DNA from: an uncultured delta proteobacterium | Lineage (GTDB): Bacteria; Bdellovibrionota_C; UBA2361; CAIXSY01 | Direction: 5' to 3' | Length of the DNA: 32,896 bases | NCBI GenBank assembly: GCA_903922175.1 | Contig: CAIXSY010000098.1 | Location: forward strand, 1-32,896 | Shown here: positions 15,000 to 32,537 of the stretch, piece by piece | How the letters are laid out: every line of letters starts with the position of its first letter | Position numbering within the stretch: position 1 is the stretch's first letter | The notes under the pieces: generated by a model | Told to the model about the DNA's origin: nothing | Seen by the model: only the letters and a program-made list of their open reading frames with translations | Databases searched by the model: none | Made by a program: the position numbers and the translations under genes

Positions 15000-15008
15000 C
15001 GCTCTCTC

Positions 15009-16061: not shown

Positions 16062-16744
16062 TGAAAGCTCCTTATAAAAATGCCAAGCGGGTTTTCTTGC
16101 AGCGTTTTATCATCCCTTGGAGGATCAATTTCGATTAAAAATGTGCCTAGCATTGTGTAGTCGTCTATCTTCTGGCCGCCACTTGAGTAAGCCGTCTCTC
16201 TCCAGCGCATTTGGTAGGAGTTGGTTTCGGGGACTTGAACGATCGAGATCGGTTGTATAGAAACTACTAGCTTCCCAATTTTCCTAAGGGGGTTGTTCTG
16301 CTCACTGTTGGCCATCTCATTTAAAAGCCCCGCCGCGTCATGGCGTAGGTACGAGTAGGCGCGAAGCCAATTTTGCTTAATCACTACTGGGTCAAGGGGA
16401 AGGGAGCGAACAAATCGGATAAACTGAGTAAGGAAATATTTAATCTCAAGCTGGCCAAGTTGATACTGCTTGTCCGTAGCGGGGCCAAGGACGACAGGTT
16501 CGCCAGTACCACGGTCGATACCTACTAGGACGGGCACCACTTTGGCTTGTCGCGCTTGGGTAGCTAGTGTCAGTGTAAGCAGAAGGCTAAAAACGACCAT
16601 ACAAAAGAAGGCTAGGCGCCAGTTTTTTGCTTGGACTACGTTAGATCCGATTCTGAGGTCCCATTCCTGCTTGGCGCGAGCAAAAGGAGTTTCGGGAGCA
16701 CTTTGCGGCTTCATGCAGACGGGGTTTTTTAGGAGTGCGTGCAT
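16040..16744 (-). CDS. trbF: TrbF/VirB8-family inner-membrane assembly protein
   Basis: The protein has 234 residues. The short cytoplasmic N-terminus includes the TrbF signature TPFARAKQEWDLRIGSNVVQ (about 19-38). A single membrane segment lies at about 43-63 (WRLAFFCMVVFSLLLTLTLA). The rest is a periplasmic VirB8-like NTF2-fold domain (VPVLVGIDRGTGEPV, FIRFVRSLPLDPVVIKQNWLRAY, MRWRETAYSSGG). TrbF nucleates assembly of the channel through contacts with TrbG and TrbI. AAGGA lies close before the ATG at 16744. It lies 11 bases downstream of trbL and overlaps trbG. Confidence 0.93.
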   Translation of the reverse strand: MHALLKNPVCMKPQSAPETPFARAKQEWDLRIGSNVVQAKNWRLAFFCMVVFSLLLTLTLATQARQAKVVPVLVGIDRGTGEPVVLGPATDKQYQLGQLEIKYFLTQFIRFVRSLPLDPVVIKQNWLRAYSYLRHDAAGLLNEMANSEQNNPLRKIGKLVVSIQPISIVQVPETNSYQMRWRETAYSSGGQKIDDYTMLGTFLIEIDPPRDDKTLQENPLGIFIRSFQWNRELP

Positions 16745-16755
16745 GGTTGTCCTTG

Positions 16756-18024
16756 CTAATCTTTAACGCCAGGTTGCTTATCTTCCTTTCTCTTTTCGGT
16801 ATCCTTTTTCTTCGCGTGATCTCGGTACTGGGGCACCGAGAAGAGCCCACGTTGAACAGCGCCCTTTATGCCGCCTTGGGCAGGATTGAGACCCAAATCA
16901 GCGCGTGTAGCTTTAGAGCCGGTAGGGGAGCCATTTTTACCGTGCATGAGGTGCTCACCCATCGCGCTTGCTGCTCCAGAAAGTACGCCAGAGGCGGCCC
17001 CAAGTGCACCTAGAGCACCTTTGGATGCTATGGTAGCGGCCTTACTTAGTGGGCCCCCGGAAATTCCTTTGGGCGAAAGAGCTTGAGCCGCAGGTATGGC
17101 ACCTCCCATGGCTGCTCCAGCCGTACTCATTGCGACACTCCCCATGGAGGTTAATCCGGTAGACTGAGCCTCGGCTAACCTTCCCCCAAGAACAGCAGCA
17201 CCGGCAGCGGTAGCAGCTACCGATCCTGCTGAGATATGCGGAGAGCCGGTAAGAAGAGTAAGCGCTAATCCTGGGGCATGAAAGCCTAGGAAACAGAGCG
17301 CAAGCGCGACTACCACGAAGTCTAACGATTGCTGCCACGTAACAGCAGCAGGTAAAATAAGCTGGCCGACATACTGTTCTGCTGCACCGATAATCAAGCC
17401 AAGGCACATAAACTTAATGCCAAAACCTATTATGGCTCCAAAAACTCGGTCTGCCAAAAAACGCAGAGGCTCGAATATGCCAAATGGAATGAGGATAAAG
17501 CCTAGTGCCGACACCACCAGATATTCGAGATACGTGACAAACATCTGAATAGCTAACAGCCCAAAACAAAGGCAACTTACGATGCCGCCGAAAAGCACCA
17601 CAAGCGGATCGAGCGATATCAGATCCAACATCCCCATCTCTAAAAGTTTATCAAAGGCAGGCTTTATTTTTTGACATCCAAGAGTGAAAATATGGCCTGG
17701 GTCTTTAAACAGGCTAAGATCAGCGCCAGTCTCTCCCGAAGCTTTCTGGCCCGCATAAATGAATCCGGCAAGTACTGTGTCAAGAAGTGACGAGTAATTA
17801 GAGATGACAAAGCTAAAAAAACCTATAATAAGAAGCTTTTTGGCCACACTGCGAAGCTCTGCCCCTTGGCCAATTGCAAAGTAGATCCCCGCAAAAATCA
17901 CCTCTACGATGATCAGAAGATGAAAAATCGACTGTGCATCTTCAAGCAGTGCCACTCTGCCCTTGTCAAAGGACTGAGCGAAAAAGGAGAGTGTGCTTGT
18001 TATTCCTTGTACTTTGTCAGCCAT
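16756..18024 (-). CDS. trbL: TrbL/VirB6-family polytopic channel protein
   Basis: This inner-membrane protein of 422 residues forms part of the DNA passage. It has about seven to eight hydrophobic segments in the first 270 residues (for example IFHLLIIVEVIFAGIYFAIG and LVVVLFGGIVSCLCFGLLAI-like stretches). A Gly/Ala/Ser-rich low-complexity region follows (about 270-370), then a basic, Lys-rich cytoplasmic tail, as in TrbL. The ATG at 18024 lies one base after the trbJ stop (TAAGATG), fitting termination-reinitiation. A TTG at 18039, overlapping trbJ, is an alternative start. Neither has a strong ribosome site. It is shorter than RP4 TrbL, mainly in the tail. Confidence 0.92.
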   Translation of the reverse strand: MADKVQGITSTLSFFAQSFDKGRVALLEDAQSIFHLLIIVEVIFAGIYFAIGQGAELRSVAKKLLIIGFFSFVISNYSSLLDTVLAGFIYAGQKASGETGADLSLFKDPGHIFTLGCQKIKPAFDKLLEMGMLDLISLDPLVVLFGGIVSCLCFGLLAIQMFVTYLEYLVVSALGFILIPFGIFEPLRFLADRVFGAIIGFGIKFMCLGLIIGAAEQYVGQLILPAAVTWQQSLDFVVVALALCFLGFHAPGLALTLLTGSPHISAGSVAATAAGAAVLGGRLAEAQSTGLTSMGSVAMSTAGAAMGGAIPAAQALSPKGISGGPLSKAATIASKGALGALGAASGVLSGAASAMGEHLMHGKNGSPTGSKATRADLGLNPAQGGIKGAVQRGLFSVPQYRDHAKKKDTEKRKEDKQPGVKD

Positions 18025-18025
18025 C

Positions 18026-18832
18026 TTAGAATTGTCCAATTGGATTCAAAGGGAGACCAGTAGCTTTTGGCACTACTTGCCCAAAGTCTGAGAGCGCCTC
18101 ACGAGCCCGGTTTGCTAGGTTTCCCTTGCGATGATTTTCCTCTAGTTCGCGCGCTGCATAGGCCTGCACATACTCACCCATCGTTATATTGAGGGATTGC
18201 AGTGATTTTGCGACCATCCCCGTTAGCTCACTCCCAATTTTGATAGACTGCATGACGCCTACTGCTTGATGGGTGTCATCGAGCAGTTTTAATGTCTGCG
18301 CCTCTGCCACTGGCAGAGAGTCCCTAATCTTTGCGCCAACTTTGATCGCATGCTTCATCTGGATTTTTGTCAAAAGAAGCTGCTTTTTCATGGCGTGGAC
18401 TTTTTCGGCCACTTCTGGAGCAACGCCATTATAAAAAGTGTCTTCCGGTTTATCTTGTACCTCCCAGTTGTCGTGGTAGCCTGGGTAGCGAGACTCCAGA
18501 GCGTCGATGGCACCCATGAGACCACCTCCCTGGTAGTCATCTATCTCGTGGAGTACGTCGTCAAAGAGTTTTTTGTACTGGTTTGCAAAAAGGGTGAATT
18601 TATGGCTTGCGAGATTTACGTGGTCTATTTCAGCCCATTTATTGAGGTTTTGCAGCTTGTTTCTCATGTTGTCTAACTGATCGATCATGGCGAGTGTGTG
18701 CTTTACCTGCTCATACAGTTGAGTTACAGCGGCAGGGTCATACACGATATCCCCCACACCAAGTATTGCGTAGCTAAGCACGGGAGCAAGTAGCAACAGG
18801 ACCGCAAGTAGCGCGTTAATACATTTTTTCAT
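18026..18832 (-). CDS. trbJ: TrbJ/VirB5-family conjugal transfer protein
   Basis: This 268-residue exported protein has a signal peptide at 1-22 (MKKCINALLAVLLLLAPVLS). The mature part is all helical: VYDPAAVTQLYEQVKHTLAMIDQLDNMRNKLQNLNKW matches the TrbJ N-terminal pattern, and the rest has repeated amphipathic helices. TrbJ acts in pilus assembly and mating-pair contact, like VirB5. Its ATG overlaps the trbE TGA (ATGA at 18829-18832), a classic coupled junction. In the RP4 order an entry-exclusion lipoprotein gene, trbK, follows trbJ; none is present here. Confidence 0.92.
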   Translation of the reverse strand: MKKCINALLAVLLLLAPVLSYAILGVGDIVYDPAAVTQLYEQVKHTLAMIDQLDNMRNKLQNLNKWAEIDHVNLASHKFTLFANQYKKLFDDVLHEIDDYQGGGLMGAIDALESRYPGYHDNWEVQDKPEDTFYNGVAPEVAEKVHAMKKQLLLTKIQMKHAIKVGAKIRDSLPVAEAQTLKLLDDTHQAVGVMQSIKIGSELTGMVAKSLQSLNITMGEYVQAYAARELEENHRKGNLANRAREALSDFGQVVPKATGLPLNPIGQF

Positions 18833-21261
18833 GCGACGTCTTTTACCTCCATCAAGCCTGATAGTGTTTGTGCATATTCGGTGAGGCCCTTTCGCTCCAG
18901 ATAGCGAACATTAAAATCAAGTGTATCAGTCGAGGTTTTTAGAAGTTCTCGCACTAAAGAGCTTTGCTCCTTTGAAACTCCGGCACAGTACGTGAGGGCA
19001 ACTTTGCCCAGTGCGAGATCAAAGAGACGGTTCCCGAGGGGTGAGGTGTAATAGTAGTCACGCTTAGGGGTGGCACAGGCGAGGATTTCAATTTGACGGT
19101 CGTTTAGTCCAAAACGTTTGTAGAAGGCGGCCGCATCGGGCTGGAGTGCTACAGCATTTGGAAGATAGATTTTAGTAAAACAAGCTTCTTTTAGAGTGGG
19201 TGCTATCTGACTAGTGTCCACGTCCGCTAGGCTTTGAGTTGCAAAAATTACGGAAACATTTTGCTTCCGAAGTGTTTTTAGCCACTCTCTTATCTTTGTG
19301 GCAAATATGGGGTGATCAAGATAAAGCCATGCTTCATCCAGCACGAGGAGAGTAGGGGAGCCGTCGAAGCGCGATTCTAGCCTATGAAAGAGATACGAGA
19401 GCACAGGAGCCACCACCGCCGGTGTATCCATGAGCCGCTCCATCTCAAAACACTGAAACCGCCCGTAGGAGAGAGAATCTTTGCCATTATCGATAAGGCG
19501 TCCATAGGCACCGCTTTGTGTAAATGGTTCAAAGGCAGCACGAAGCTCCATATTTTGGAGATAGACGGTGAATGAGTGTAGCGTGCGCTGCTCTTTGGGC
19601 GTGGCGGCAAGCGAGTTTAGAGCCTCCCAAATTGCACTCTTAACCTCAGGTGTTGTTTTGACGTTCTCTTTCTCTGCTAGCGCAACTAACCAGTCATGCG
19701 CCCATTTCCGCTCGGCGGCGTTATCTACAAGCGAGAGCGGTTGTAGTAGTAGTGCGGCCTCTTCGGCCCCTAGGTCGTAGAAGTCTCCACCTACGGCTGA
19801 TGTTAGGGTAAGCGCGCTCTGGCCTTTGTCAAAAATATAAACTTGAGCATTTTGGTAGCGTAAAAACTGCGCCTCTATAAAATTGAGCAGTGTGGACTTG
19901 CCGGAGCCGGTTGGACCAAGAATAAGAGTATGTCCCACGTCTCCTATGTGGTTAACAAAGCGAAAGGGAGTGTTGCCTGACGTTTCGGCAACAAATAGAG
20001 GGGCTCCCTGAAGGTGCTTGTTTTCGCCCTGTCCTCCCCATAGTGCGCTAGCCCCTGGAAGTAGGTGGGAGAGATTTATGGTGTTTATAAGGGGGCGGCG
20101 CACGTTGCGCTGTGTATTACCTGGGACAGCACCGAGCCAAGCATCCACGGCATTTACAGTCTCCCTTCTACATGTAAACCCGGCGGAGTTTATGACACGC
20201 TCTACTTCACTGGTTAAACTAGCAAGCATCGTTGCATCAGTGTGAAGAAGCACTATGGAGGCGGTAAAATAGCCGTAGGCAATCTCATCACTACCAAGTT
20301 CCACTAAGGCATGTTCTGCGTCCAGAGCCTTCTGTATAGCGTCGGTATCACTTACAGAGGACTCTTGCTTTGTGATAAGCTCCTTAATGAGAGCTACTAA
20401 CCCTTTGCGCTTTGCAAACCATTTTCTCTGATAGCCTTCAAGCTCTTTTTTGGCGTCAACCTTGTCGAGGCATATAAAGCGAGCGACCCAGCGGTATGAG
20501 ATCGGCAGATGGTTTAGGGCATCAAGAATTCCAGGGCTAGAAGAGCCAGGAAACGACATAATGCCAACTACAGACATGTGATGATCCCCTAACTTAGGTG
20601 CGAAGCCTGATAGCAGGGGGGTATCTGGCAATATTGCGTCCAAATAGACCGGAATTTCAGGCATGCACACTCGGTGATGTTTGGGGGAAATAGTGGAGTG
20701 TAGGTAGGTAAGAAGCGAATCGCCCTGCAAGAGTTCAACCTCAGGGAAAATTCGCTCCATGAGATCAAAAACTCTAGCTACGTCAGTCCGGAAAGTTTCG
20801 AGGACGGCCTCGTAATTAATACTTTCCTTGGATGAGTCGGAGCGAAGAAAGAGGTTCGTAAGCTTTGTGGTGCGGTCTCCGGGGGGAAGGTAAAGAAGAG
20901 TTAGGTAATACGAGGACTCGAAGTGACTATTCTTGCCAAAGGCTATCCGTCTTTCTTCATCGATTAGGGCACTTACCGGATCGCTAAACTCTGAGTCGGG
21001 GTACGGCTGCGCTATGTCTCTACTTGCCTCTGCATAAATCGCCCAAGATGAGCCAAGGCGTCTTAGGACGTTGTTTATATGGGCGGCTTTGACCAACAGC
21101 TCTTCTTCTGTTGAAGAGTCGAGATCCGGGCCACGATAGCGCACAGTTGTCTGAAATGAGCCATCTTTGTTCAGCACTACGTCTGGCGCCGCTAGCGCTG
21201 CCCATGGAAGAACATCGCTTAGGCGATCGGGGTTTTTTCGATGTTCTCGAATATCAAGCAT
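18829..21261 (-). CDS. trbE: TrbE/VirB4-family conjugation ATPase
   Basis: This is the largest channel ATPase (810 residues); it powers pilus and substrate movement at the inner membrane. The N-terminal CagE/TrbE region (about 1-400) is followed by a RecA-like domain with Walker A GPTGSGKST (449-457), Walker B PTLLVLDEAW (636-645) and the following VIFATQSLADV motif (671-681). The length is close to RP4 TrbE. The ATG follows the trbD stop by three bases. No ribosome site is obvious, so coupling to trbD is likely. No frameshift or missing motif was seen. Confidence 0.96.
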   Translation of the reverse strand: MLDIREHRKNPDRLSDVLPWAALAAPDVVLNKDGSFQTTVRYRGPDLDSSTEEELLVKAAHINNVLRRLGSSWAIYAEASRDIAQPYPDSEFSDPVSALIDEERRIAFGKNSHFESSYYLTLLYLPPGDRTTKLTNLFLRSDSSKESINYEAVLETFRTDVARVFDLMERIFPEVELLQGDSLLTYLHSTISPKHHRVCMPEIPVYLDAILPDTPLLSGFAPKLGDHHMSVVGIMSFPGSSSPGILDALNHLPISYRWVARFICLDKVDAKKELEGYQRKWFAKRKGLVALIKELITKQESSVSDTDAIQKALDAEHALVELGSDEIAYGYFTASIVLLHTDATMLASLTSEVERVINSAGFTCRRETVNAVDAWLGAVPGNTQRNVRRPLINTINLSHLLPGASALWGGQGENKHLQGAPLFVAETSGNTPFRFVNHIGDVGHTLILGPTGSGKSTLLNFIEAQFLRYQNAQVYIFDKGQSALTLTSAVGGDFYDLGAEEAALLLQPLSLVDNAAERKWAHDWLVALAEKENVKTTPEVKSAIWEALNSLAATPKEQRTLHSFTVYLQNMELRAAFEPFTQSGAYGRLIDNGKDSLSYGRFQCFEMERLMDTPAVVAPVLSYLFHRLESRFDGSPTLLVLDEAWLYLDHPIFATKIREWLKTLRKQNVSVIFATQSLADVDTSQIAPTLKEACFTKIYLPNAVALQPDAAAFYKRFGLNDRQIEILACATPKRDYYYTSPLGNRLFDLALGKVALTYCAGVSKEQSSLVRELLKTSTDTLDFNVRYLERKGLTEYAQTLSGLMEVKDVA

Positions 21262-21264
21262 ATC

Positions 21265-21513
21265 TTACACGTCGTAGTATGGTTTTTGATTTATGTGGCG
21301 TTTGAAAGTGTCAAGAAAATATGGGTCGTGCTTGGCGAGCACTACAGCTGCGGCGTGCATCCCCATAATCACAGGGATGGCAAGAATAGACTGTAAGCCA
21401 AAAACAAGTGCCGCCCCAAAAGTCACGTTTAAGATCGCAAACTCCCTGGGTGCCCCGCCAAGCAGGATGGGCTGAGTAAGAGACCTATGGATAACCACAT
21501 CAAATCCTTCCAC
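21265..21513 (-). CDS. trbD: TrbD/VirB3-family inner-membrane protein
   Basis: This is an 82-residue protein starting at GTG 21513, with AGGAG eight bases upstream. The N-terminal VIHRSLTQPILLGGAPREFAILN is the TrbD/VirB3 signature. A hydrophobic hairpin follows (VTFGAALVFGLQSILAIPVIMGMHAAAVVLA), then a short polar tail (DPYFLDTFKRHINQKPYYDV). It works with TrbE and TrbC in pilus biogenesis and in some systems is fused to VirB4. The gene lies 18 bases downstream of trbC and three bases before trbE. Confidence 0.92.
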   Translation of the reverse strand: MEGFDVVIHRSLTQPILLGGAPREFAILNVTFGAALVFGLQSILAIPVIMGMHAAAVVLAKHDPYFLDTFKRHINQKPYYDV

Positions 21514-21531
21514 AATCAGATCTCCTAGTCT

Positions 21532-21837
21532 CTACCAGCCAAAAAACGTTGGTGCCCATGTGCTCGCTCCAATGGCAAGTGCTCCACCGAACACTGCACA
21601 TGAGCAGCGACGAAAGAAGGAGCCCGCTTCTCCTATTGCAAAGGCTAGGCCCGCAAGAATAATGGCTAGAATAATCACTATTTGAGCGGTTGTGCCTTGG
21701 AGGCTTGCAAGAAGCTTCCTCAGAGGGGTCTCCCATGGCATTGCTGCTACCTCCTGTGCATAGGCGGGAACTGAATAAATTACGGTTACTAGGGCTGTAC
21801 TGATTGAAGCTACTACTTTATCAGATATACGTTTCAT
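21532..21837 (-). CDS. trbC: TrbC/VirB2-family propilin
   Basis: This 101-residue propilin is the subunit of the conjugative pilus. It has a long signal-like N-terminus (MKRISDKVVASISTALVTVI...AYAQ, cleavage near 28) and a mature part with two hydrophobic segments (IVIILAIILAGLAFAIG and CAVFGGALAIGAS). The ATG at 21837 has GGAGG nine bases before it; a TTG at 21855 would swallow this site. It is the first gene of the leftward trb unit, 66 bases after the end of array 3. RP4 TrbC is cyclised by the TraF peptidase, but no traF is found in the window, so processing would rely on a distant enzyme or differ. Confidence 0.9.
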   Translation of the reverse strand: MKRISDKVVASISTALVTVIYSVPAYAQEVAAMPWETPLRKLLASLQGTTAQIVIILAIILAGLAFAIGEAGSFFRRCSCAVFGGALAIGASTWAPTFFGW

Positions 21838-21902
21838 CGTTTCGATCCTCCACAAAGGTTGTCGTTTTGTAGGGGTAGAAATAGCCTATAATTTGCTAAC
21901 AG

Positions 21903-21961
21903 AGGTGGGATCACATCCTGGGGAGCTATCCTGGGTGGTTATCCTGGGGAGCTATCCTGGG
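21903..21961 (-). repeat. Tandem 13-bp repeat array 3 (four units), before the trbC-I operon
   Basis: On the minus strand the units are 21961-21949, 21948-21936, 21935-21923 and 21922-21910, followed by CCCACCT (21909-21903). Units and order equal those of array 1, and the identity extends a few bases upstream (ACAAAT). The array points at trbC, as arrays 1 and 2 point at their genes. The match of about 65 bases, 19.8 kb away and inverted, shows either strong selection or recent copying. Confidence 0.92.
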
Positions 21962-22040
21962 ATTTGTCGATGTGACAGTGATGCGGTTTATTCTTAGGAA
22001 AGTAAACCAACCGGAAGCTGTGCAGGTGCGTACTTTATTT

Positions 22041-22535
22041 TTACGCTGCCTTCACCAACGCCTCGTATGCTCGCTGCAGAAGGAGAGTCCTGTCATGTGC
22101 AAGTTTGGAAAAAACGGGGTCAAGATGAGCAACTTTGTCGGGATGATTTTCTACCATCCTCAGGCGATAGGCACGTAGAATTTCCGAATTTGACGATCCT
22201 CTTGCTACACCAAGTATTGTGTAAGGATCAAAATCATCCACGTTGTGATCGGTTTCTGCGGTTGAGTGTTTGTGGGCACTACTGAAGTCATTACGCTCAT
22301 TGTTAGAGCAGGTATTTTTAACCTCGCCGACCCCAATCCGAACCAACACCCATTGCAAGGCTACTTGAATAAGCTGAACTGCTTTACTAAGCCCAAAAAG
22401 TAGAAGGGCAGGGGGGCCCACTATGGCAAGGCTTAACAAGCTAATGGCGAAGTACACTGCACTAAGAAGTAAAAGTACTATGACGAATATTTTCATCCCA
22501 AAGAAAAGAATTTTAAGTACAACCACGACGCTCAT
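22041..22535 (-). CDS. Membrane-anchored J-domain (DnaJ-type) co-chaperone
   Basis: The protein has 164 residues. The N-terminal 70 are hydrophobic, with two probable membrane segments (IFVIVLLLLSAVYFAISLLSLAIVGPPALLLFG...), then a polar linker. A C-terminal J domain occupies about 100-164: DPYTILGVARGSSNSEILRAYRLRMVENHPDKVAHL, with the essential HPD at 131-133, then LLLQRAYEAL. J domains stimulate the Hsp70 DnaK, so this protein would bring DnaK to the inner membrane, perhaps to handle pilus or channel proteins. The layout (N-terminal anchor, C-terminal J) resembles DjlA-like or TerB-less membrane J proteins, but the family is unclear. It follows the RHH-like gene by 12 bases and ends just before array 3. 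It is not a standard trb gene. Confidence 0.82.
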   Translation of the reverse strand: MSVVVVLKILFFGMKIFVIVLLLLSAVYFAISLLSLAIVGPPALLLFGLSKAVQLIQVALQWVLVRIGVGEVKNTCSNNERNDFSSAHKHSTAETDHNVDDFDPYTILGVARGSSNSEILRAYRLRMVENHPDKVAHLDPVFSKLAHDRTLLLQRAYEALVKAA

Positions 22536-23247: not shown

Positions 23248-24960
23248 ATGATGGAGGATGATAAACAGCGGCCACGGATTACTAAGCAAAAGCGCATGGT
23301 GCACGCGCTTATTATGAGCGTCATCCTGGTGGCTTTACAGTGGTCTCTTTTCAGCGTCTACGCCCCTAGGGTTGAGTCTGGCCGTTTGGCAAGTTTTATC
23401 GGGATTGCCGGAGTCATCAATGACACATCGAGGATCGTGACACCTAGCGGGGTAACGATAATAGAGCTTTCCCCCTCGACCACTCCAAGAGACGATGCTA
23501 GGCAGAAACTAGTAAGGCAGAGAGAGCAAGAGGCAGAACTCCTTGAGCGAGTAGCCGAAGAGGGTGCCAAGGCTGTAGTGCTAAATCTCTATCTTTCAAA
23601 GGAGTCACAGCCAGATATAGACCAACGGCTTTCCGCAGCTATAGCCAAAGTTCCAACTATCCTTGCTGTAACATCCAAATACTTACCGACGAGCACGAAC
23701 AAATCCTACAATTGGCAGGCGGTAACTTCTCTTCCAATCTTTAGTACAAGCGCTAGATCTGTTGCGCACCTGCGCTTTGGGGCGCTAAACGGGCCAATTG
23801 CAGAGTTTCATGGAGAACGAGAACTTAATAGTAAAGTTTATCCATCACTATCTCAAGCGATCTCTGCTATCGCCAGACTTACGCAGCCCGACCCGCACTA
23901 CCGCTCCTATGTAAAGTACTACGGCGCACCCGGCACAATCGTGCCACTTAAATCAAGCGAAGTCCTAGCCAAACCAGCGGGCTCAACTTTCAAGGATAAA
24001 ATCGTAGTTATTGGAGTCGCACGTGCAAACGACAGTAGCGACGGTCTTTTTTCCTCATTTCGCTTCTCTGACTCCGGTATTGAAATGTCAATCCTTGAAC
24101 TGTGCGCTACAGCCATTGCTAACCTTATCGATGGCAGAGCTATTCGGCGGCTTCCTTTTGAGACGGAAAGCCTTCTAATTCTTGCCATCTTGGGTGTTAC
24201 CACATTCGCTATGTGGTTTCTAGAAGGCAAGTGGGCGATTGCTGCTTTTGGTCTAATCTGCAGCGCGTGGCTGGGTGTATCACTGATATTGTTTCGCTTC
24301 GACTTTTTCTTCCCGCTTGCTATATTCACGGGTCTTTTTCCTTGGGTCATAATCCTCCGCGTATTAAAGGCGGTCAAAGGAGAAATTAAGAGTGCGTTAA
24401 CTATGATAGGCTCCTGTCTCCCTAGGCGTTCGCCCAAACGACCAGGGAAATCCACTGGCGTGGGAAGCATTATTCAGGTCCGATGGGCGAACATTAAAGA
24501 TTCACCTGACGCCCTGACGCAGGTACAAAATGCTGCCGCCGAAATAGTCTCAGCACGTGGCGGTGTGGTGTATTCGAGCTCTATCGACACGCTTCTGGCC
24601 TCCTGGGGCATACCCGACAAGTGCGAGCTTTGCGCAGAAAAAGCAATAGAAACTGCTACCGAGATAGCGCTCATGCTGAAAAACAAACAAGACGCCACAA
24701 TGTCATTTTCTATCGGAGTAGCCTCGGGACAATTAAACTCTCTTCTCTTTGGTCCACCAGCGGCCCCCCGCCTTGTAGCCACGGGCGAAACAGCTGAACG
24801 GGTAGCAAGGCTTCAGGCTCTTGCCGCCGAGCAAACCTCCATAATTGTCTTCGATGATGAAACGTCAAAGCGTATCCCCAAAACAAAATATCCAGCTACG
24901 CCAACTAACCCACCGCAGAGCGGCGAAAAAGCCTTCCGCGTTATCCTTGGAGAGGTTTGA
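23248..24960 (+). CDS. CHASE2 membrane sensor with degenerate class III nucleotide cyclase domain
   Basis: The protein has 570 residues. An N-terminal membrane segment (19-38) is followed by an extracytoplasmic CHASE2 domain (about 45-300; GVTIIELSPST, GAKAVVLNLYLS, YYGAPGTIVPLKSSEVL, KDKIVVIGVA). Three membrane segments (306-324, 328-349, 351-373) lead to a cytoplasmic cyclase-like domain (405-570). The cyclase fold is recognisable (FSIGVASGQLNSLLFG, GETAERVARLQALA), but the first metal Asp is Asn (VRWANIKD, N415). The second site is SIDTLLASWG (only D447 kept), and the VNxAxRL Asn is Glu. It is therefore probably catalytically dead and acts as a nucleotide or partner-binding sensor. The ATG at 23248 follows AGGA; an ATG at 23221 lacks a site. 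Two bases separate it from the ABC ATPase. Confidence 0.85.
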   Translation: MMEDDKQRPRITKQKRMVHALIMSVILVALQWSLFSVYAPRVESGRLASFIGIAGVINDTSRIVTPSGVTIIELSPSTTPRDDARQKLVRQREQEAELLERVAEEGAKAVVLNLYLSKESQPDIDQRLSAAIAKVPTILAVTSKYLPTSTNKSYNWQAVTSLPIFSTSARSVAHLRFGALNGPIAEFHGERELNSKVYPSLSQAISAIARLTQPDPHYRSYVKYYGAPGTIVPLKSSEVLAKPAGSTFKDKIVVIGVARANDSSDGLFSSFRFSDSGIEMSILELCATAIANLIDGRAIRRLPFETESLLILAILGVTTFAMWFLEGKWAIAAFGLICSAWLGVSLILFRFDFFFPLAIFTGLFPWVIILRVLKAVKGEIKSALTMIGSCLPRRSPKRPGKSTGVGSIIQVRWANIKDSPDALTQVQNAAAEIVSARGGVVYSSSIDTLLASWGIPDKCELCAEKAIETATEIALMLKNKQDATMSFSIGVASGQLNSLLFGPPAAPRLVATGETAERVARLQALAAEQTSIIVFDDETSKRIPKTKYPATPTNPPQSGEKAFRVILGEV

Positions 24961-24962
24961 CA

Positions 24963-25700
24963 ATGATTATTCTTGATCACCTCACTCGGCGCTATGGAAC
25001 AATAACTGCGGTTAATGACCTTAGCCTTTCAGTTGAGGATGGTGAGGTTTTGGTCTTTCTCGGCGTTAATGGAGCCGGGAAAACCACGACGATTAAACTC
25101 ATGACAGGACTTTTGGCTCCGTGCTCGGGTGCAGTCTATATCGACGGAGAGGAGATCTGTCCGTCGAATCCCTCTGCAAGGAGGCTTTTTGGATACGCGC
25201 CTGACCAGCCCGAACTGTTTCCTCGTCTAACCGCACAGGAAACCGTAAAATTTAGCGCCCGGCTCTATGGAGTTTACCTTACGGATAGTGAGGCTACAGA
25301 ACTTTTGGAGGCTCAAGATCTAGCACGCGATAGAAACCGTCTCGTGCATGGTTTCTCTCGCGGCATGAAACAGCGGCTTTCGATCTGCCTTGCCCTAGCG
25401 CATAAGCCGCGGGTTCTTATTTTAGATGAACCTCTAGTAGGCCTTGATCCGCTAGGTGTCATAAGAATGAAAGCGCTTCTTGCCACACTGGCACAAACAG
25501 GGCACACCATATTTTTATCGACGCATAGTCTTTCGTTTGCAGAGGAATCTGCGACAAGAGTAGCCGTCATTCACCACGGCACGTTATGCGCAGTCGGTGA
25601 CCCACGCTTGATCCGTACCGAAGCAAACAAGTCAAGCTCGCTAGAAAAGGTATTTTTCGAACTTACAAGCACGCCGGATCCAACACAGGCAGATATATGA
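24963..25700 (+). CDS. ABC transporter ATP-binding protein
   Basis: The 245-residue ATPase subunit has all core motifs: Walker A GVNGAGKTT (34-42), Q-loop YAPDQPELF, signature FSRGMKQ (131-137, a common variant of LSGGQ in exporter-type ATPases), Walker B VLILDEP (151-157) and the H-loop STHSL. The layout resembles the CcmA/NatA/DrrA group. The ATG has GGAGAGG eight bases before it, inside the end of the preceding gene. Its stop overlaps the start of the permease (ATGA), so the three genes form one tightly coupled operon. The substrate cannot be inferred. Confidence 0.93.
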   Translation: MIILDHLTRRYGTITAVNDLSLSVEDGEVLVFLGVNGAGKTTTIKLMTGLLAPCSGAVYIDGEEICPSNPSARRLFGYAPDQPELFPRLTAQETVKFSARLYGVYLTDSEATELLEAQDLARDRNRLVHGFSRGMKQRLSICLALAHKPRVLILDEPLVGLDPLGVIRMKALLATLAQTGHTIFLSTHSLSFAEESATRVAVIHHGTLCAVGDPRLIRTEANKSSSLEKVFFELTSTPDPTQADI

Positions 25701-27412
25701 GTAAATCGCTGCGCGCTTTACAGATTATATCTCTTATGCCAAGCATGCTCTTTAGAGAGCACTACAACGCGCTCTTTTGTGATCGTGCGGGGCCCGTGGC
25801 GCGAGAAACACTAATTGTTAGGCTCGTTTTCATGTTAGTTTGCATCCCCATGCTCCTAGTCATAGGACTACGTTACCTCTCCGGTCTTTTCGGAACAGAC
25901 GCTTCATTGACTCTCCTATTTATCATAACTCTCGCCTGGGTTCCCATATACGTGGGAGCGTTTCGCTCAGCTCTTTTTAAATTTGAGTATGGGGCACGGC
26001 TTATGATTGCCCCCCTTAATGGTTTTTTATTCGGCTTGAGCCTCAATGCAGCGGCAGTTTTTTACTGTCTGGGGCTTTTTATCTCCATGACTATAGCCGC
26101 TATTTGCTGCACGGGCTTGGGGATTTTCAACCCGCTGGTGTGCCTTAGATTGATAGGCGTAATTGCCATCTTCGTAGTGGCTGTTTCCTCTCTCGTCATA
26201 TTTATGGCATTTTTAGCTGAAAGCTGGCTTAAACTGCATGCGCGCTATCCCGTTTTCTGTAACCTTTGCTTTGGCATAAGTGCCATCGCAGCCCTACTCG
26301 ACTCATTTCTGGGCGGAATGCCCGGGATTCAGACTTTCATAGTAACTGAAAGATCAACCAGTTATTTGCCGTGGTGCGTGGCAGCACGCGCCGCTTTAAC
26401 AGGCGACACTAGTGCATGGCTTATATTTGGCTGCTACTCCATCGCTTTATTGTCTTTGACTTCGGTTTTCAGTTACAGACTATTTAACATGCTCTACCGC
26501 CTTTCGAATGTCACCAGAGATCCGGACCGTGCTCTTACACGGCACCTCTTTTCGTACCTTCTCTCGCGATTTTCCCCCGTTGCATCAAAGTATATAGTGG
26601 ATCTCTGTCGATCGCCGATGGCCGTCAAATTTTGTATTATAGTGCTTGTTGCCGAGGTCGCAGCGATAGAGATTATGTCCGAGTTGGCAATGACTTCAAG
26701 AGAGGCGTTATATACTGCGGCCAACTTCGGGCTTCGTCAGGGTTTGTTCACGACTAAAATGTGGGTTCAGGCTACCTCGGCGATGATCAATCCGATTGCA
26801 GCGGGACTACAGGTTTCAACTTCAGCCGAGGTATTATGTTTTATTATGCTTTTCTGCTCTATTATCTCCGCCTCGGCTCTTCAACGAGGGGGAGCGACCC
26901 TATGGCTTATGCGAGTATGCCCACGCACGTTTCATTCTATTCTCACAGACTACGCGCGCTGCTGCTTTGCACACAGCTGTGTATTTATTATTCCCTTTAC
27001 ATATTTGGTAGCGCGGAGCAACGAGGCGTCGAATGCCGTATCTCTCATCGGGACACTTTTTGTGATCCCTTTTCTTTTTAGCGCCTCTGCAATTGGAGTT
27101 GTGGCGGGTACCTTTGTGCCACAGGACGACGGACATCGCACGGAAGATGACTTATCATGCATATCAATTCTAATTGCAATGCTATCAACGACAGTCATTT
27201 GGGTTGCCCATAGAGCACTGTTCAACTTCATCTTTGCGCTGGAATTCACTGTAGAGATATATAGCATTGGCGAAGGTTCTATTGTACTTCATATAGTAAT
27301 GACCCTTACGGCTCTTGCGATGCTTCATTGGGCTATAGCATCGGGAGTGATCGCTCTTGGCGCACGGAGAATCGACTCTTTAGCTAAGGAAGCGCAGGGT
27401 GTTCCCACATGA
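25697..27412 (+). CDS. Polytopic membrane protein, probable ABC permease partner
   Basis: The protein of 571 residues has about twelve hydrophobic segments separated by short loops. Examples are LIVRLVFMLVCIPMLLVIGL, ITLAWVPIYVGAFRSALF, a pair near 110-165, and VIFIPFTYLVARS- and FVIPFLFSASAIGVVAGTF-like stretches. It has no signal peptide and no nucleotide-binding motif. The four-base overlap with the ATPase gene and the membrane topology make it the likely permease of the exporter. It does not match a common ABC-2 signature that I recognise; the 12-segment layout suggests two half-permeases fused. Control by the CHASE2 protein encoded first in the operon is plausible but inferred from order only. 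Confidence 0.72.
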   Translation: MSKSLRALQIISLMPSMLFREHYNALFCDRAGPVARETLIVRLVFMLVCIPMLLVIGLRYLSGLFGTDASLTLLFIITLAWVPIYVGAFRSALFKFEYGARLMIAPLNGFLFGLSLNAAAVFYCLGLFISMTIAAICCTGLGIFNPLVCLRLIGVIAIFVVAVSSLVIFMAFLAESWLKLHARYPVFCNLCFGISAIAALLDSFLGGMPGIQTFIVTERSTSYLPWCVAARAALTGDTSAWLIFGCYSIALLSLTSVFSYRLFNMLYRLSNVTRDPDRALTRHLFSYLLSRFSPVASKYIVDLCRSPMAVKFCIIVLVAEVAAIEIMSELAMTSREALYTAANFGLRQGLFTTKMWVQATSAMINPIAAGLQVSTSAEVLCFIMLFCSIISASALQRGGATLWLMRVCPRTFHSILTDYARCCFAHSCVFIIPFTYLVARSNEASNAVSLIGTLFVIPFLFSASAIGVVAGTFVPQDDGHRTEDDLSCISILIAMLSTTVIWVAHRALFNFIFALEFTVEIYSIGEGSIVLHIVMTLTALAMLHWAIASGVIALGARRIDSLAKEAQGVPT

Positions 27413-27456
27413 TGTGAGAGCCACCTTGCCGGAATAGGCAAACATGGTAGAATTGT

Positions 27457-27499
27457 TATACTCTGCCCAGGGTCAAACCCTCCGGGAGGGGGTAGAGTA
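27457..27499 (+). promoter_or_regulatory. Extended -10 promoter and structured leader of the rightward HD gene
   Basis: TG-T-TATACT (27454-27462) is an extended -10 match with no clear -35. Overlapping it, TACTCTGCCC (27459-27468) pairs at 9 of 10 with GGGTAGAGTA (27490-27499), enclosing inner dyads (GGGTCAAACCC; CCCTCCGGGAGGG, 27478-27490). A transcript starting near 27468 would carry these inner hairpins about 40 bases before the AAGG ribosome site at about 27517. This could be a cruciform operator or an RNA control element. Confidence 0.5.
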
Positions 27500-27528
27500 G
27501 GGTGAAAGATATTTATAAGGCATAATTT

Positions 27529-28164
27529 ATGACAACAGCCGACAGCTCCTTGATAAATCATCCCTTGCCCAAATTTATTGAAGCCATACTGGTGAAGTTA
27601 GAAAAAGAGCTTGCATCGCTTCGCTACCACAATTTGCAGCATACCCGTAGCGTGATAAACGATGCTATCACTCTTGCTAAGGATGACTCCTGCTGTGCAC
27701 GCGACTTAGAGCTTATCTTGGTTGCTGCCGCTTTCCACGATGCAGGCTATCTTGTGTCCCCCACAGAGCATGAACAAGCAGGCGCACGCTTCGCCGAAGA
27801 GGCTATGCGCGCAGAGAATTGTTTTACTTCAGAGGAGATCGCGCTAGTCGTCCAAAGTATTAAAGATACCAAGCTTGTAGTGGTAGGCGGCGAGACCGTT
27901 CAGGTGGCCAACACTAGACTCTCTCCATACCTGCTTGACGCTGATATGGCGCACTTTGGCCGGGTCGATTTTCGTGAAAAATCAGAGCTTCTACGCCTAG
28001 AATTCGGCACAGTGCTGGCTTTGAAATGGTGGGATGAGACATTCAAGCTTGTTGATGATCACCTATGGAAGACCTGGCCAGCATACCAAAAGTGGGAGAA
28101 GCAGAAAAAGGTGAATCTTAGGGGACTGCGGGAAGCAGTCTGCCTTTGCATAGGTGGGGTCTAG
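27529..28164 (+). CDS. HD-domain phosphohydrolase paralogue A
   Basis: This 211-residue protein is close to a single HD domain. The metal ligands are present: YHNLQHT (H34, H38), FHDAG (H70, D71) and LLDADMAHFG (D137, D139 region). HD enzymes hydrolyse nucleotide phosphates or cyclic nucleotides. The same family is fused to a CHASE2-cyclase at 29153-31780, which suggests a cyclic-nucleotide role. AAGG lies eight bases before the ATG, after a structured leader. The gene starts 116 bases after the ABC permease, and its stop directly abuts the stop of the convergent paralogue B. No signal or membrane segment is present, so it is cytoplasmic. Substrate unknown. Confidence 0.85.
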   Translation: MTTADSSLINHPLPKFIEAILVKLEKELASLRYHNLQHTRSVINDAITLAKDDSCCARDLELILVAAAFHDAGYLVSPTEHEQAGARFAEEAMRAENCFTSEEIALVVQSIKDTKLVVVGGETVQVANTRLSPYLLDADMAHFGRVDFREKSELLRLEFGTVLALKWWDETFKLVDDHLWKTWPAYQKWEKQKKVNLRGLREAVCLCIGGV

Positions 28165-28806
28165 TCACTTCCAGATAGCAAGCTCTGCGTGCAGGGCAGC
28201 TAAATTGTTCTCTTGCTCTTTGGCCCACTGCTCGCGCGCTGGGCGCGATTGCCATTGGTGGGCGGCGACTAATCGGGTAACACCTTCGTAGAACGCTTTA
28301 GTAACAGGCAAGCTAAGCTCACGTCTTACAAGTTCTGTCTTCTCGCGAAAGTCGCTCCTGCCGAAGTTAGCTAAATCAGCATCAAGGATGTACGCGGAAA
28401 GAGGACTTCGGCACACTTGTATCATAGTCTGCCCTCTCGGGACCAGGCAGGTGTCACGTATCATCTGGGCCACAAGCAGAATTTCTTCTGCGCTAAAACA
28501 ACCTTCGGCCTCCAAGCACTGGATTACATAGAGAGCGCCTTCTTCTTCGTGGCCCTTTCTCGTAGTTAGAAAACCTACATCGTGGAAAGCGGCAGCAATG
28601 AGCACTAGGTGCTGATCGCGCACGCTGCACTTGTCTTCACGTGCTAGGCGTGTAGCCTCTTTAATGACATCTCTCGTATGCAAAATATTGTGATAATAGA
28701 GCGCCGGATCTAGCTCGTTTTCAAGTCGAACAAGAACGTTTTGCAGAAACATTGGATAACGCTCTTCATCGTCTTTTACCAATGCATGCGACAGCCCCTC
28801 ATTCAT
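28165..28806 (-). CDS. HD-domain phosphohydrolase paralogue B
   Basis: This 213-residue protein aligns with paralogue A over nearly its full length. Shared landmarks are FLQNVLVRLENEL / FIEAILVKLEKEL, YYHNILHTRDVI / RYHNLQHTRSVI, AAAFHDVGF / AAAFHDAGY, LDADLANFGRSDFREKTELVRRE / LDADMAHFGRVDFREKSELLRLE. The metal-ligand set is intact (H39, H43, H75-D76, LDAD). It is transcribed towards paralogue A, with the stop codons of the two genes adjacent (28162-28164 and 28165-28167) and no space for a terminator. Such a tail-to-tail pair arises by inverted duplication and lets the transcripts overlap. Cytoplasmic; substrate unknown. Confidence 0.85.
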   Translation of the reverse strand: MNEGLSHALVKDDEERYPMFLQNVLVRLENELDPALYYHNILHTRDVIKEATRLAREDKCSVRDQHLVLIAAAFHDVGFLTTRKGHEEEGALYVIQCLEAEGCFSAEEILLVAQMIRDTCLVPRGQTMIQVCRSPLSAYILDADLANFGRSDFREKTELVRRELSLPVTKAFYEGVTRLVAAHQWQSRPAREQWAKEQENNLAALHAELAIWK

Positions 28807-29152
28807 ATAGCTTGAACCGTTTAGTAAGCTCTTTAGTAGTATATCGTTACTTAAGGCGGTCTACTTTAAGGGAGTTAGCGAGGCCAATTGAGACCGAATA
28901 GCACATGTTTTTATACCGTAATACACACTAATGGCACTTAATTCAGGCGCCTCTCGTGCCCATTAAACACTGCGTATGGGGACAAACTCAATGAGTAGGG
29001 GGCGCAATGCCCAGAACCCTTTTAAAAGGTTCGAACGAGCAGCGATGTTTTTCCTTCCTACTATTTTTCGCATGTCGAAAATAGGACATTAGGGTACTTC
29101 TCGTCTATTCTGTGCCGCTTAAGGGGGAGACCTAGGTACGGCTTCGCTGCCT
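28807..29152. other. Gene-free gap with two stem-loops between HD gene B and the fusion gene
   Basis: No gene is seen. A near-palindrome GAACCCTTTTAAAAGGTTC lies at 29014-29032. A stem-loop, CTATTTTTCG-CATGT-CGAAAATAG, lies at 29061-29084, some 70-90 bases past the stop of the leftward fusion gene. It could end that transcript, but it lacks a T-run. The gap must also contain the promoter of HD gene B. Confidence 0.45.
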
Positions 29153-31780
29153 CTATTTTGAGAACAGCAACACTCCACGCCAATCATCATCCGGGGGTGA
29201 CTTAGTGAGCCTCTCTATTTCGTGAACGTAGTAGGCTGCAATACTTGAGAGAAAATAATCTCCCTCAGAGAGTGCACTAAAGAGCTTATGCGCTTTGTCC
29301 CAGTGTCGACGCCGAAAGGCGCGTAGCGCACGATACCACTCCTGCCACTCTTTCCCATTAGTGGCCGCGAAATCTCGATTACAGAGTGCGTATACATTCA
29401 TCGGACCCATTCTGTCTTCGTCTTTGGGAATGAGAATTTCTCCGACATAGATTAGCTTAAACGGAAGCTTTGGTCGCTTAAGCCTTTCACCACGTCGACT
29501 GCCAAGTAGCCGTGTGCGCCCAAACGCTTTAATAATGCCATCTAGTCTTGCAAGATTACTAGGGAACGAACCGTGTAAACCGTACTCCTCATCGCACGAC
29601 GAGGCGATGAGTCCCTCGACAGCCTTGTCAATAATAGCTCCAATTCGAACGTTGTTAGATGGGAAAAGGCTACTGCGGCGCAGCCTCTCAATGCATTGCT
29701 CAATCTCTTCTGCAGCCTTTAACGCTGCAGCGTGGGGATTGTTGCCTTTAAAGAGCCTACCAAATACCGCTCCGGCGCCGTCGCCAGTGTCGGCATATCG
29801 AACTCCGCCATGAGCGCGCGCAATGTTCATCGCTGTTCTATTAAGGAGTGACTTAAGCACTAACATGTATTTATCGTCGGCGGCATGAGCATGCACGGAG
29901 GATTTTTCCATATCCCAGAGTATAGCCACCACGGGCCCCGGCATTGGAAGAAGTGTTTCGCCTTGACTTAGGCGGCGCACCACCTCGGGATCTAATCCTC
30001 CTTCAATCCTTCGCTCGCGTGACGACCATTCATCAAGTACGATGAGGAAAGCTAGGATGCTAATCACCACCAAAATAAAAACTACGGTGACAGGCGGAAT
30101 AAAGTAATAGTGGAGAAACATCGCGTAGCTGCCTACGAGTACTGCAAATACTGAACCCAAACCGATGACAACCGTCGCCCAGCTTCGAGCTCTCTTGGTA
30201 TTAAACGCCTGACTAGGAATGAACAGGATGAGCACCCCTAAAATCATAATTGCCAAACTTAAAATAACTTGCTCTAAGGGCTTATCGAGGCGGTGTATCC
30301 AGCGTTGCTCGATGGCGTTGGCAGCGGCAGTGGCGTGAATGTGCACTCCGCAGTAAAGATTGCCGTATGAGGCGAGATAATAGTCGGGTGCGTTTCTGAA
30401 CCCTCCGTTAGAAAGACAATAGCCGACAAAAACGACATTGCCCCTGATCATTGGTTCGAGCTTCTCTCGTTGTCCCTCTAGGATTTCTTCATAGGAAGTG
30501 TAGGCAATCGCATCTCTTTCTCCGTAGTAGTTAATCAGATCGCGTTGGGCTGGGAACTTCTTTACTCCCATTCTTTCGGCCGCTATGCGATACAGAGGTG
30601 GTGGCGCTTCCACCAGCGTATCAAATTGCGGAAATCTTCGAACAACCGAGTCATCTTTTCCGAGGACATCATTGCCGACCTCTGCTACTGAGCTGAAACG
30701 CGAATCGGGCTTACTAATCTGCTCGCGTATTCCATGTTTCTCGTCTGCTGGAGTTCTTTGGGTGGCTATGATTACATTTCTTTTAGCTAGACTTTCCGCA
30801 AGTTGGTCGTTAATTTCATCGGTCGCGGCCGCTGGAGTGAAGTTTATATCAAGTACAATCAATCTCGCGCCGTAGTCTTGAAGGCGGTCGATAACCTCAC
30901 TTTGAATAGTTCGAGGGAAGGCTTGGTTGGCATCAAGCTTAAGTGCATCGGCAGCAGTATCGTCTAGCACAGCGACAAGAACATTATTGTTTGGTGGTGT
31001 AGCCCCGCGGAATCGAAACCAAAAGGTACTAGCAGCAAGTTCAAAGCCGCGAAAATAGGGAGCCTTAATGAGATACGGAAGAACGAGGATCGCAGCAAGG
31101 CAAAGGATGGTCCGAGATGCTAACCATTTCGCATTGCTAACCTTTTTCTTCTGTACGCTTTTAATCCGCTCTCTGAGCCAAAGAATGTTTTCTTGCTTTT
31201 TGGCTTCCCAACGCTCATTTGCCTGGCGAGTTTGAAAGCGATGAGCCTCCAAAGAAACCTCAAGAGGTGCGTATACTACTTCGGTTTTCAAACCGAGTTC
31301 ATTACTTAACTTGTCAACGAGCTGTGAGAATTCCCCGTCAGCGCGCCAGGCCTCGTGCGCGTCAAGAAGGTAGGGAGACAATCTAGTAGATGCTCTCTGC
31401 GTCGGCGGCACACCTTGAATGGTTATGTACCTCGTGTCGTTGATGGCTTGTCGAACAAGAGAGATCTCATCGTCTGTGTACTGGCCGCTCTCGCTCATCG
31501 TGCGTGCGGCGTCACTTGCGCCCAAGACGGCAGTTGGGGTGAGAGAAAGCTTTTTCTCTAGGTATCCAAAGTCGGTAAATGTCGCAGCTATTAAAAGAAG
31601 TTCCAGGTCACGAGCCGAGATTTCATCCTCTTTCGCCAGCGCCAAACAGTCGCTGATAACTTTTAATTTGCGTGCCGTAGTGTGAAAGGTTATGCCCGAG
31701 GGAAGAGTGCGGTCGTAGTGCCGCAGTGCTTCCTTGACAAAGAGCGGCCAGGTATCGGGTAAACTGTCGAAAAGAGACAT
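29153..31780 (-). CDS. HD-CHASE2-nucleotide cyclase fusion, membrane sensor
   Basis: The protein has 875 residues. Residues 1-205 are a third HD paralogue that has lost its metal site: HNxxHT reads FHTTARK, HD reads TD (69-70) and LDAD reads LDAH. A membrane segment (221-239) is followed by extracytoplasmic CHASE2 (about 245-495), then three membrane segments (504-523, 533-551, 561-583). A class III cyclase domain (615-800) follows, keeping both metal Asps (WDMEKS, D623; TGDGAGAVFG, D667) and the Asn of SNLARL (742). A helical tail (about 805-875) ends DDDWRGV, as in other CHASE2 cyclases. It probably makes a cyclic nucleotide in response to an envelope signal, with the dead HD as a ligand sensor. 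The Arg after Asn is one residue nearer than usual, so activity is uncertain. Confidence 0.88.
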   Translation of the reverse strand: MSLFDSLPDTWPLFVKEALRHYDRTLPSGITFHTTARKLKVISDCLALAKEDEISARDLELLLIAATFTDFGYLEKKLSLTPTAVLGASDAARTMSESGQYTDDEISLVRQAINDTRYITIQGVPPTQRASTRLSPYLLDAHEAWRADGEFSQLVDKLSNELGLKTEVVYAPLEVSLEAHRFQTRQANERWEAKKQENILWLRERIKSVQKKKVSNAKWLASRTILCLAAILVLPYLIKAPYFRGFELAASTFWFRFRGATPPNNNVLVAVLDDTAADALKLDANQAFPRTIQSEVIDRLQDYGARLIVLDINFTPAAATDEINDQLAESLAKRNVIIATQRTPADEKHGIREQISKPDSRFSSVAEVGNDVLGKDDSVVRRFPQFDTLVEAPPPLYRIAAERMGVKKFPAQRDLINYYGERDAIAYTSYEEILEGQREKLEPMIRGNVVFVGYCLSNGGFRNAPDYYLASYGNLYCGVHIHATAAANAIEQRWIHRLDKPLEQVILSLAIMILGVLILFIPSQAFNTKRARSWATVVIGLGSVFAVLVGSYAMFLHYYFIPPVTVVFILVVISILAFLIVLDEWSSRERRIEGGLDPEVVRRLSQGETLLPMPGPVVAILWDMEKSSVHAHAADDKYMLVLKSLLNRTAMNIARAHGGVRYADTGDGAGAVFGRLFKGNNPHAAALKAAEEIEQCIERLRRSSLFPSNNVRIGAIIDKAVEGLIASSCDEEYGLHGSFPSNLARLDGIIKAFGRTRLLGSRRGERLKRPKLPFKLIYVGEILIPKDEDRMGPMNVYALCNRDFAATNGKEWQEWYRALRAFRRRHWDKAHKLFSALSEGDYFLSSIAAYYVHEIERLTKSPPDDDWRGVLLFSK

Positions 31781-31793
31781 AAGTGCAATGTTG

Positions 31794-32537
31794 TTAATTA
31801 TCTTTTTCGAGCTTCCAACTTAATGTCACATCAAGCGCTTCATCAGAGGCCAGGCCATTAGCAAGGAAAAACACTATTTCGATGCGCCCGTCGTCACCGG
31901 TGCGCCGATCCATTTGGACTCGGGAGGAAGAGGGGGCACTCTTACCGAATGAGTTGATAATCTTTGCTTCCACCCCCACCGATTCAGCCGCGGCTGCATT
32001 CAACGGAAGGTGGATGATGGCGGTTGCCTCTCCAGTGCCAGCCCGCGATTGGAAGCGATAGGAAAATGCCTTATCGGCGGCAGTCTTATCTTCAATTCCA
32101 CTGCTGAGTGAAAATGATGCTGAAAGCTGCTGTGCTCCATCGGGAAGCGGGCTGACGCAGATCTGGCTCTGATCTTCTGGTGGACTAGGCATCAAGTCGT
32201 AATCAAACACTACGTAATGCTCGCGCCAAATTTTTCGAGGTGTTCCTTGTTCCTTTAAACACACATTTATAACACCTGGCACTGTTTTTAGATGCTCCAA
32301 CATGCGTACATCGCCGGGTCCCACAAGGTCGAGATCCCATTGGACATAGCTAGCCGATCGGGGGCCCTGATTAGCAATATATCCGTGAGGATAGGCAACC
32401 AAGCACACGATCAGCGAGAGGCTCACGACGATTGCCAGCGTAGGAATTACGCATGCGGCCACACGTGGGTCACGCAAGACCTCACGCACCAGAGCTAACC
32501 GGCTCGGTTTGATATTTTTGTGCTGCGCGCGAAACAT
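31794..32537 (-). CDS. Single-pass envelope protein of unknown function, upstream of the CHASE2 fusion
   Basis: This is a 247-residue protein: a short basic cytoplasmic tail (1-28), a membrane segment (about 29-50, ACVIPTLAIVVSLSLIVCLV) and about 190 extracytoplasmic residues. These include a Cys pair (VCLKEQG..., QICVSP) and a beta-rich C-terminal half (SYRFQSRAGTGEATAIIHLPL, GRIEIVFFLANG, VTLSWKLEKD), possibly an Ig-like or sandwich fold. No family is recognised. Its stop is 13 bases before the fusion gene start, so it is first in that operon. It may be the periplasmic partner that presents a signal to CHASE2. It diverges from the Flp-type pilin gene. Confidence 0.72.
   Translation of the reverse strand: MFRAQHKNIKPSRLALVREVLRDPRVAACVIPTLAIVVSLSLIVCLVAYPHGYIANQGPRSASYVQWDLDLVGPGDVRMLEHLKTVPGVINVCLKEQGTPRKIWREHYVVFDYDLMPSPPEDQSQICVSPLPDGAQQLSASFSLSSGIEDKTAADKAFSYRFQSRAGTGEATAIIHLPLNAAAAESVGVEAKIINSFGKSAPSSSRVQMDRRTGDDGRIEIVFFLANGLASDEALDVTLSWKLEKDN

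Follow-up and report, generated by a model that had tools for sequence, protein, structure and literature searches.

Why should intact and degenerate copies of the same enzymes, HD proteins on the one hand and class III nucleotide cyclases on the other, stand side by side in one bacterial locus? The question is raised by contig CAIXSY010000098.1 (assembly GCA_903922175.1) of an uncultured delta proteobacterium, referred to here as the window, which covers 32,896 nucleotides and is the complete contig C98 of a metagenome-assembled genome (MAG) of 432 contigs (94% complete, 6.8% contamination). The locus encodes two small HD proteins (HD-A and HD-B), a fusion of a third HD domain with a CHASE2 sensor and a cyclase domain (FUS), a second CHASE2 protein with a cyclase domain (CH1), an ABC ATPase, a membrane protein (PERM) and a further protein, SEC. 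To our knowledge, no phosphodiesterase has been assigned in many of the genomes that encode class III cyclases. The known bacterial phosphodiesterases of cyclic AMP (cAMP) are mostly of class III (CpdA-like), and classes I and II are described as restricted (PMC13087886). Here we report that HD-A and HD-B belong to a family whose members, across bacteria, recur in fusion with, or next to, enzymes that make cyclic nucleotides; the family is therefore probably a group of bacterial enzymes for cyclic-nucleotide degradation that has gone unrecognised. These small proteins are directly testable phosphodiesterase candidates, and the locus offers a natural case in which intact and degenerate copies are paired, for HD enzymes as well as for cyclases.

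HD proteins linked to class III cyclases

In a residue alignment of 58 relatives of the HD family, seven residues (H34, H38, H70, D71, E82, D137 and D139) are invariant in 58/58, and both HD-A and HD-B retain all seven. The metal ligands of the class I phosphodiesterase type (H38, H70, D71 and D137/D139) occur in order in every one of the 58 members. The HD domain of FUS, found at 9.5e-42 with a profile built from relatives, retains H34, D71 and D137; in it H38 is replaced by R, H70 by T and D139 by H, and E82 is lost. Because these four residues are missing, the fused domain is very unlikely, judging from its sequence, to assemble the metal site. An earlier reading of this DNA, made from the sequence alone and called here the sequence-only reading, had described three HD paralogues, two intact and one fused and damaged, and the invariant residues of the alignment confirm it. 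Since HD-A and HD-B are grouped as sisters on the tree (support 98/87), the pair is, on phylogenetic grounds, a local duplication.

When 84,980 species genomes were searched with the HD alignment, 207 relatives were obtained, the best 80 of which were retained; cyclases were called with profiles built here and checked by Pfam on eight neighbours or fusions. A class III cyclase is fused to 18/81 HD genes and directly adjoins 10 more, always on the same strand, which gives 28/81 HD genes fused or adjacent to a cyclase vs 6/401 background genes farther away, proportions that are not frequencies because the best-scoring 80 were sampled and the fusions of Bacteroidota form a single lineage. Several architectures are represented: Reg_prop-Y_Y_Y-cyclase-HD (propeller) fusions in Bacteroidota, an FHA-cyclase-HD fusion as well as an FHA-cyclase adjoining an HD gene, small cyclases adjoining HD in Halieaceae, an AAA-TPR cyclase adjoining HD in Chloroflexota, and a CHASE2-cyclase adjoining an HD-GAF-histidine kinase (loci L097/L064). 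The tree places the Bacteroidota type of fusion, the FHA type and FUS apart from one another, so that by this phylogeny HD has been joined to a cyclase at least three times independently. The cyclase-linked family spans Bacteroidota, Pseudomonadota, Chloroflexota and the deltaproteobacteria-like lineage of the window. It was not found in viral contigs, and a comparison of HD-A with plasmids gave two distant matches. In the literature searched, no publication tying HD proteins to class III cyclases or CHASE2 was found.

Other arrangements of the family were observed. At L057-L066, in related genomes, its members are fused to a GAF-histidine kinase (HD-GAF-HATPase), often with a gene for half an ABC exporter (ABC_membrane + ABC_tran) next to them. 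In a Chitinophagaceae MAG (L138, 6554-8056) an HD domain of the family shares a chain with a DUF2179-bearing YitT-type membrane protein and has no obvious cyclase partner, and HD proteins of ~483 residues akin to it occur in other Bacteroidota loci.

The structural model of HD-A (predicted local distance difference test, pLDDT, 94) was compared with solved structures by Foldseek. Two uncharacterised HD proteins and PDE4D appear at ~6e-4 (PDE4D at 6.1e-4), then many PDE4, PDE10 and PDE5 chains, and YpgQ, crystallised with ADP, at 5e-3 to 9e-3; the model is as close to PDE4 as to any solved bacterial HD structure. The family profile matches PDE4 (1.3e-3), PDE8A, PDE7A, PDE1B and PDE9A over the YH-x3-H...HD segment. 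PDEase_I matches 10 of the 58 family members (best 4.7e-4), with HD-B below its cut-off (12.0 bits vs 24.8) and HD-A without a match, and Pfam and NCBIfam give the family generic HD names only. From the phosphodiesterase resemblance and the linkage to cyclases, our best guess is that HD-A and HD-B hydrolyse 3',5'-cyclic nucleotides; the proposal that the two proteins remove a cyclic nucleotide thus finds support in cyclase fusion and adjacency and in a phosphodiesterase-like fold and profile.

Degenerate cyclase domains and their relatives

The presence of two CHASE2 proteins is confirmed by Pfam, with E-values of 7.4e-14 (52.4 bits) in CH1 and 2.8e-24 (86.5 bits) in FUS against a cut-off of 26.3 bits. 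Transmembrane (TM) segments are predicted at residues 26-44 and 318-382 of CH1, and hydropathy and domain positions in the CHASE2 proteins agree with a layout of TM segment, extracellular domain, three TM segments and cytoplasmic cyclase. Pfam detected neither of the two cyclase domains; a profile built from relatives finds both, in FUS at 2.1e-9 and in CH1 at 8.2e-7 (residues 438-553). When modelled with AlphaFold (mean pLDDT 79, predicted template modelling score 0.50), FUS gives matches to class III cyclases, Rv1900c and CyaB among them, at 3e-7 to 1e-5.

At the six catalytic positions, nearly all of the ~60 cyclases compared read D-K-D-D/A/S/N-N-R. FUS reads D-A-D-S-S-R and keeps both metal Asp residues and the Arg, with Lys replaced by A and Asn by S. 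CH1 reads (not D)-S-D-E-E-R and keeps one Asp and the Arg, with Lys replaced by S and Asn by E (the first-metal Asp position is taken from the alignment; the local profile match starts after it). The complete catalytic set (two metal Asp, Lys/Glu, Asn and Arg) is found in neither protein. By their residues neither domain is canonical, for which reason a nucleotide source encoded by the locus itself is doubtful. The description of one damaged cyclase and one with metal Asps holds in both parts, and the term "live-looking" given to the latter was generous, FUS being without the Lys and the Asn.

Residues 222-873 of FUS resemble CHASE2-cyclases of ~656 residues that most same-order genomes encode (24-29% identity, E down to 6.5e-55). 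Among 399 Pseudomonadota the best match reaches 2e-20, and distant CHASE2-cyclases and one HD protein were found there, with no HD-CHASE2-cyclase fusion. On this difference in score, FUS probably originated within the host lineage. The relationship of CH1 is more distant (best 9.4e-24). A search of genome contigs by peptide patterns revealed no close relative of FUS. Many of the same-order CHASE2-cyclases adjoin a protein of ~1150 residues with, where tested, FecR-TPR and a weak TonB-barrel match.

The host carries intact CHASE2-cyclases on contigs C146 (DKDDNR) and C28 (DEDDNR) and three proteins that bind cyclic nucleoside monophosphates. Host cyclases such as that of C146 could supply the messenger, if any exists. 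One of the three binding proteins is an MscS-like channel with a cyclic-nucleotide-binding domain, whose gene converges on that of the intact CHASE2-adenylate cyclase of C146 (L039, 2128-5909).

A proposed signalling cassette and its alternatives

We favour, at a probability of about 0.45, the reading of the locus as a membrane-sensing cassette for cyclic-nucleotide signalling, with HD-A and HD-B as phosphodiesterases, CH1 and FUS as regulators or scaffolds, and a messenger made mainly by the host. HD-A and HD-B would be metal-dependent 3',5'-cyclic nucleotide phosphodiesterases of a family that may have co-evolved with class III cyclases. CH1 and FUS would descend from CHASE2-adenylate cyclases, FUS clearly from those of the host lineage, and because both active sites have degenerated they are more likely to be signal-responsive regulators or scaffolds, binding a cyclase, the nucleotide or the HD enzymes, than messenger sources. 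The messenger would come mainly from ordinary host cyclases, for example the intact CHASE2-adenylate cyclase on C146. CH1, translationally coupled to the ABC genes, may, going by gene order only, pass an envelope signal to the transporter, and the ABC ATPase and PERM would form an exporter driven by CH1.

Several points weigh against this reading. The activity of HD-A and HD-B is a prediction from sequence and model. The fold does not fix the substrate, because two uncharacterised bacterial HD proteins are as close to HD-A as PDE4D is, and YpgQ also belongs to the close folds. The figures for cyclase linkage come from the best 80 of 207 relatives, and many of the Bacteroidota fusions belong to a single lineage. 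Unusual residues do not prevent activity in some class III cyclases, and for this reason FUS cannot be called dead. Finally, the full gene set is known from one MAG contig only. The co-occurrence expected under the sequence-only reading was obtained in part: the full set does not recur, being found nowhere else searched, and an HD gene with a CHASE2-cyclase recurs in two related genomes, adjacent in one (L064/L097) and two genes apart in the other (L050/L100).

A related reading, which we regard as tentative and somewhat unlikely, takes the HD family as an undescribed, widespread class of bacterial cyclic-nucleotide phosphodiesterase, similar to class I enzymes and accompanying class III cyclases, and the locus as a mobile cassette in which two pseudoenzyme CHASE2 receptors or inhibitors would gate the exporter and the HD enzymes when an envelope signal arrives.

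The sequence-only reading put forward a circuit in which a cyclic nucleotide synthesised by FUS is degraded by HD-A and HD-B and detected by CH1, which would thereby control the exporter; this mechanism now appears unlikely. FUS does retain both metal Asps and the transition-state Arg, and the cyclase fold is kept in its model; class III cyclases function as dimers, and FUS could give a metal site to a partner. However, the case for synthesis by FUS is weakened by its loss of the Lys and the Asn, which nearly all compared cyclases retain; a ligand pocket in CH1 is hypothetical, and no further CHASE2-ABC operon was found in the genomes searched.

We judge it similarly improbable that HD-A and HD-B act on another nucleotide or phosphoester, in the manner of YpgQ or YfbR, with the cyclase link reflecting nucleotide homeostasis instead of messenger turnover. 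The solved folds closest to HD-A, which take in uncharacterised HD proteins and YpgQ, and the generic HD names would agree with such a role, but the independent and repeated fusion of the family to class III cyclases would otherwise be hard to explain. Less likely still, the genes could be unrelated cargo gathered beside a conjugation cluster, with damaged domains that are merely decaying, as might be suggested by a full set unique to the window contig and by two domains with catalytic residues lost; yet all frames are open and long, the genes form two coherent convergent modules with 4-nt overlaps, the GC content at third codon positions (GC3) is similar across the locus, and HD and CHASE2-cyclases recur together elsewhere. 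A Pycsar-like anti-phage system, suggested by the mobile-element setting and by weak PADLOC matches to PycC (4.7e-5 and 0.0076), is highly improbable and phage defence was rejected, since ordinary chromosomal CHASE2-cyclases match the same models far more strongly (1e-15 to 1e-39), so that these matches only restate cyclase homology, Pfam revealed no adjacent TIR or PycTM effector, and nothing supports defence.

Gene organisation and genomic setting

The signalling cassette that we favour is laid out as two convergent modules, CH1-ABC-PERM-(HD-A) on the plus strand and SEC-FUS-HD-B on the minus strand, beside a trb-type conjugation cluster (Table 1). The genes, strands and lengths first reported for the locus are confirmed, its gene anatomy is real, and every frame is open and long. 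Overlaps of 4 nt join CH1 to the ABC ATPase gene and the latter to PERM, and HD-A follows PERM after 116 nt. On the other strand SEC precedes FUS by 13 nt and 346 nt separate FUS from HD-B; HD-A and HD-B stand tail to tail with a gap of zero.

Table 1. Features of the CHASE2/HD locus and the adjoining conjugation genes (window positions)
Feature	Position	Strand	Evidence
trb-type conjugation genes (TrbI, TrbL, TrbE etc.), adjoining the CHASE2/HD locus	13881..22535	-	
CH1: TM - CHASE2 - 3 TM - degenerate class III cyclase domain, 579 aa	23221..24960	+	Pfam, cyclase profile
ABC ATPase, 247 aa	24957..25700	+	ABC_tran 5.2e-31
PERM: 571-aa membrane protein, probable ABC permease partner	25697..27412	+	~11 predicted TM
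HD-A: intact HD enzyme, putative cyclic-nucleotide phosphodiesterase	27529..28164	+	Pfam HD 6.9e-6
HD-B: intact HD enzyme, sister of HD-A	28165..28806	-	46% identity, tree
FUS: degenerate HD - TM - CHASE2 - 3 TM - divergent class III cyclase - C-terminal tail, 875 aa	29153..31780	-	
SEC: 247 aa, one N-terminal TM, rest probably periplasmic; first gene of FUS module	31794..32537	-	

The locus had been credited with an ABC exporter, of which the ATPase is sound, its nearest NCBIfam models being DrrA/GldA/RbbA-like and all below cut-off; the partner, PERM, matches no Pfam or NCBIfam family. Homologues of PERM were found in none of 43 phylum relatives, 15 named genomes, the 399 Pseudomonadota, plasmids or viral contigs. 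SEC likewise has no Pfam or NCBIfam match and no homologue in the 43 phylum relatives. No second CHASE2-ABC operon was present among the genomes searched, nor a second HD-CHASE2-cyclase fusion among same-order genomes or the 399 Pseudomonadota.

The left two thirds of the window form a conjugation module with an ArdC-like protein, a DUF3363/MobL relaxase, TraG, a TrbB-like ATPase, TrbI, TrbL and TrbE; the other trb clusters examined in the phylum are without CHASE2/HD genes. Because the GC3 of the locus resembles that of the rest of the contig and the relatives of FUS come from the same order, a recent foreign origin of the cargo is unlikely. No overlap of its ends that would mark the contig as circular was found, nor any known RNA elements in the window. 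Iteron-like repeats of 13 bp (CCCAGGATAGCTC...) occur at 2142-2206, 7259-7308 and 21900-21967, and 2142-2206 and 21903-21967 make up a perfect 65-nt inverted pair flanking the conjugation module. Between the TrbB-like and TrbI genes (11406-13688) lies a gene for an FG-GAP repeat protein with 99-nt direct repeats, and at 32806-32896 a Flp/TadE-like open frame begins (MAIRPYPLNLRSERGAALVEY...), truncated by the contig end.

Comparison with known systems

The locus has class III cyclase homology in common with Pycsar (PMC11224242), which needs PycC and an adjacent PycTIR or PycTM effector, whereas here the effector is absent and the PycC matches are weaker than those of ordinary cyclases. CHASE2 class III cyclases are also shared with Sinorhizobium meliloti, in which the CHASE2-adenylate/guanylate cyclases CyaD1, CyaD2 and CyaK act with the outer-membrane barrel NsrA (PMC13001267). 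The intact CHASE2-cyclases of the phylum, standing beside a FecR-TPR-beta-barrel protein, recall the NsrA pairing by gene context alone. In contrast, the two cyclases of the locus have degenerated; an N-terminal HD domain is attached to one, the other heads an ABC operon, and there is no adjacent beta-barrel partner. With class I phosphodiesterases such as PDE4, HD-A and HD-B share the order of the YH-x3-H ... HD ... D motif and the all-helical HD fold; class I enzymes exceed 300 residues, whereas HD-A and HD-B have ~210, fall formally outside PDEase_I and are phosphodiesterases only putatively. Like FUS, the FHA-cyclase-HD and propeller-Y_Y_Y-cyclase-HD proteins unite the HD family and a class III cyclase on one chain, but in these the HD domain is C-terminal and intact and the cyclase canonical, whereas in FUS the HD domain is N-terminal and degenerate and is joined to a CHASE2 sensor.

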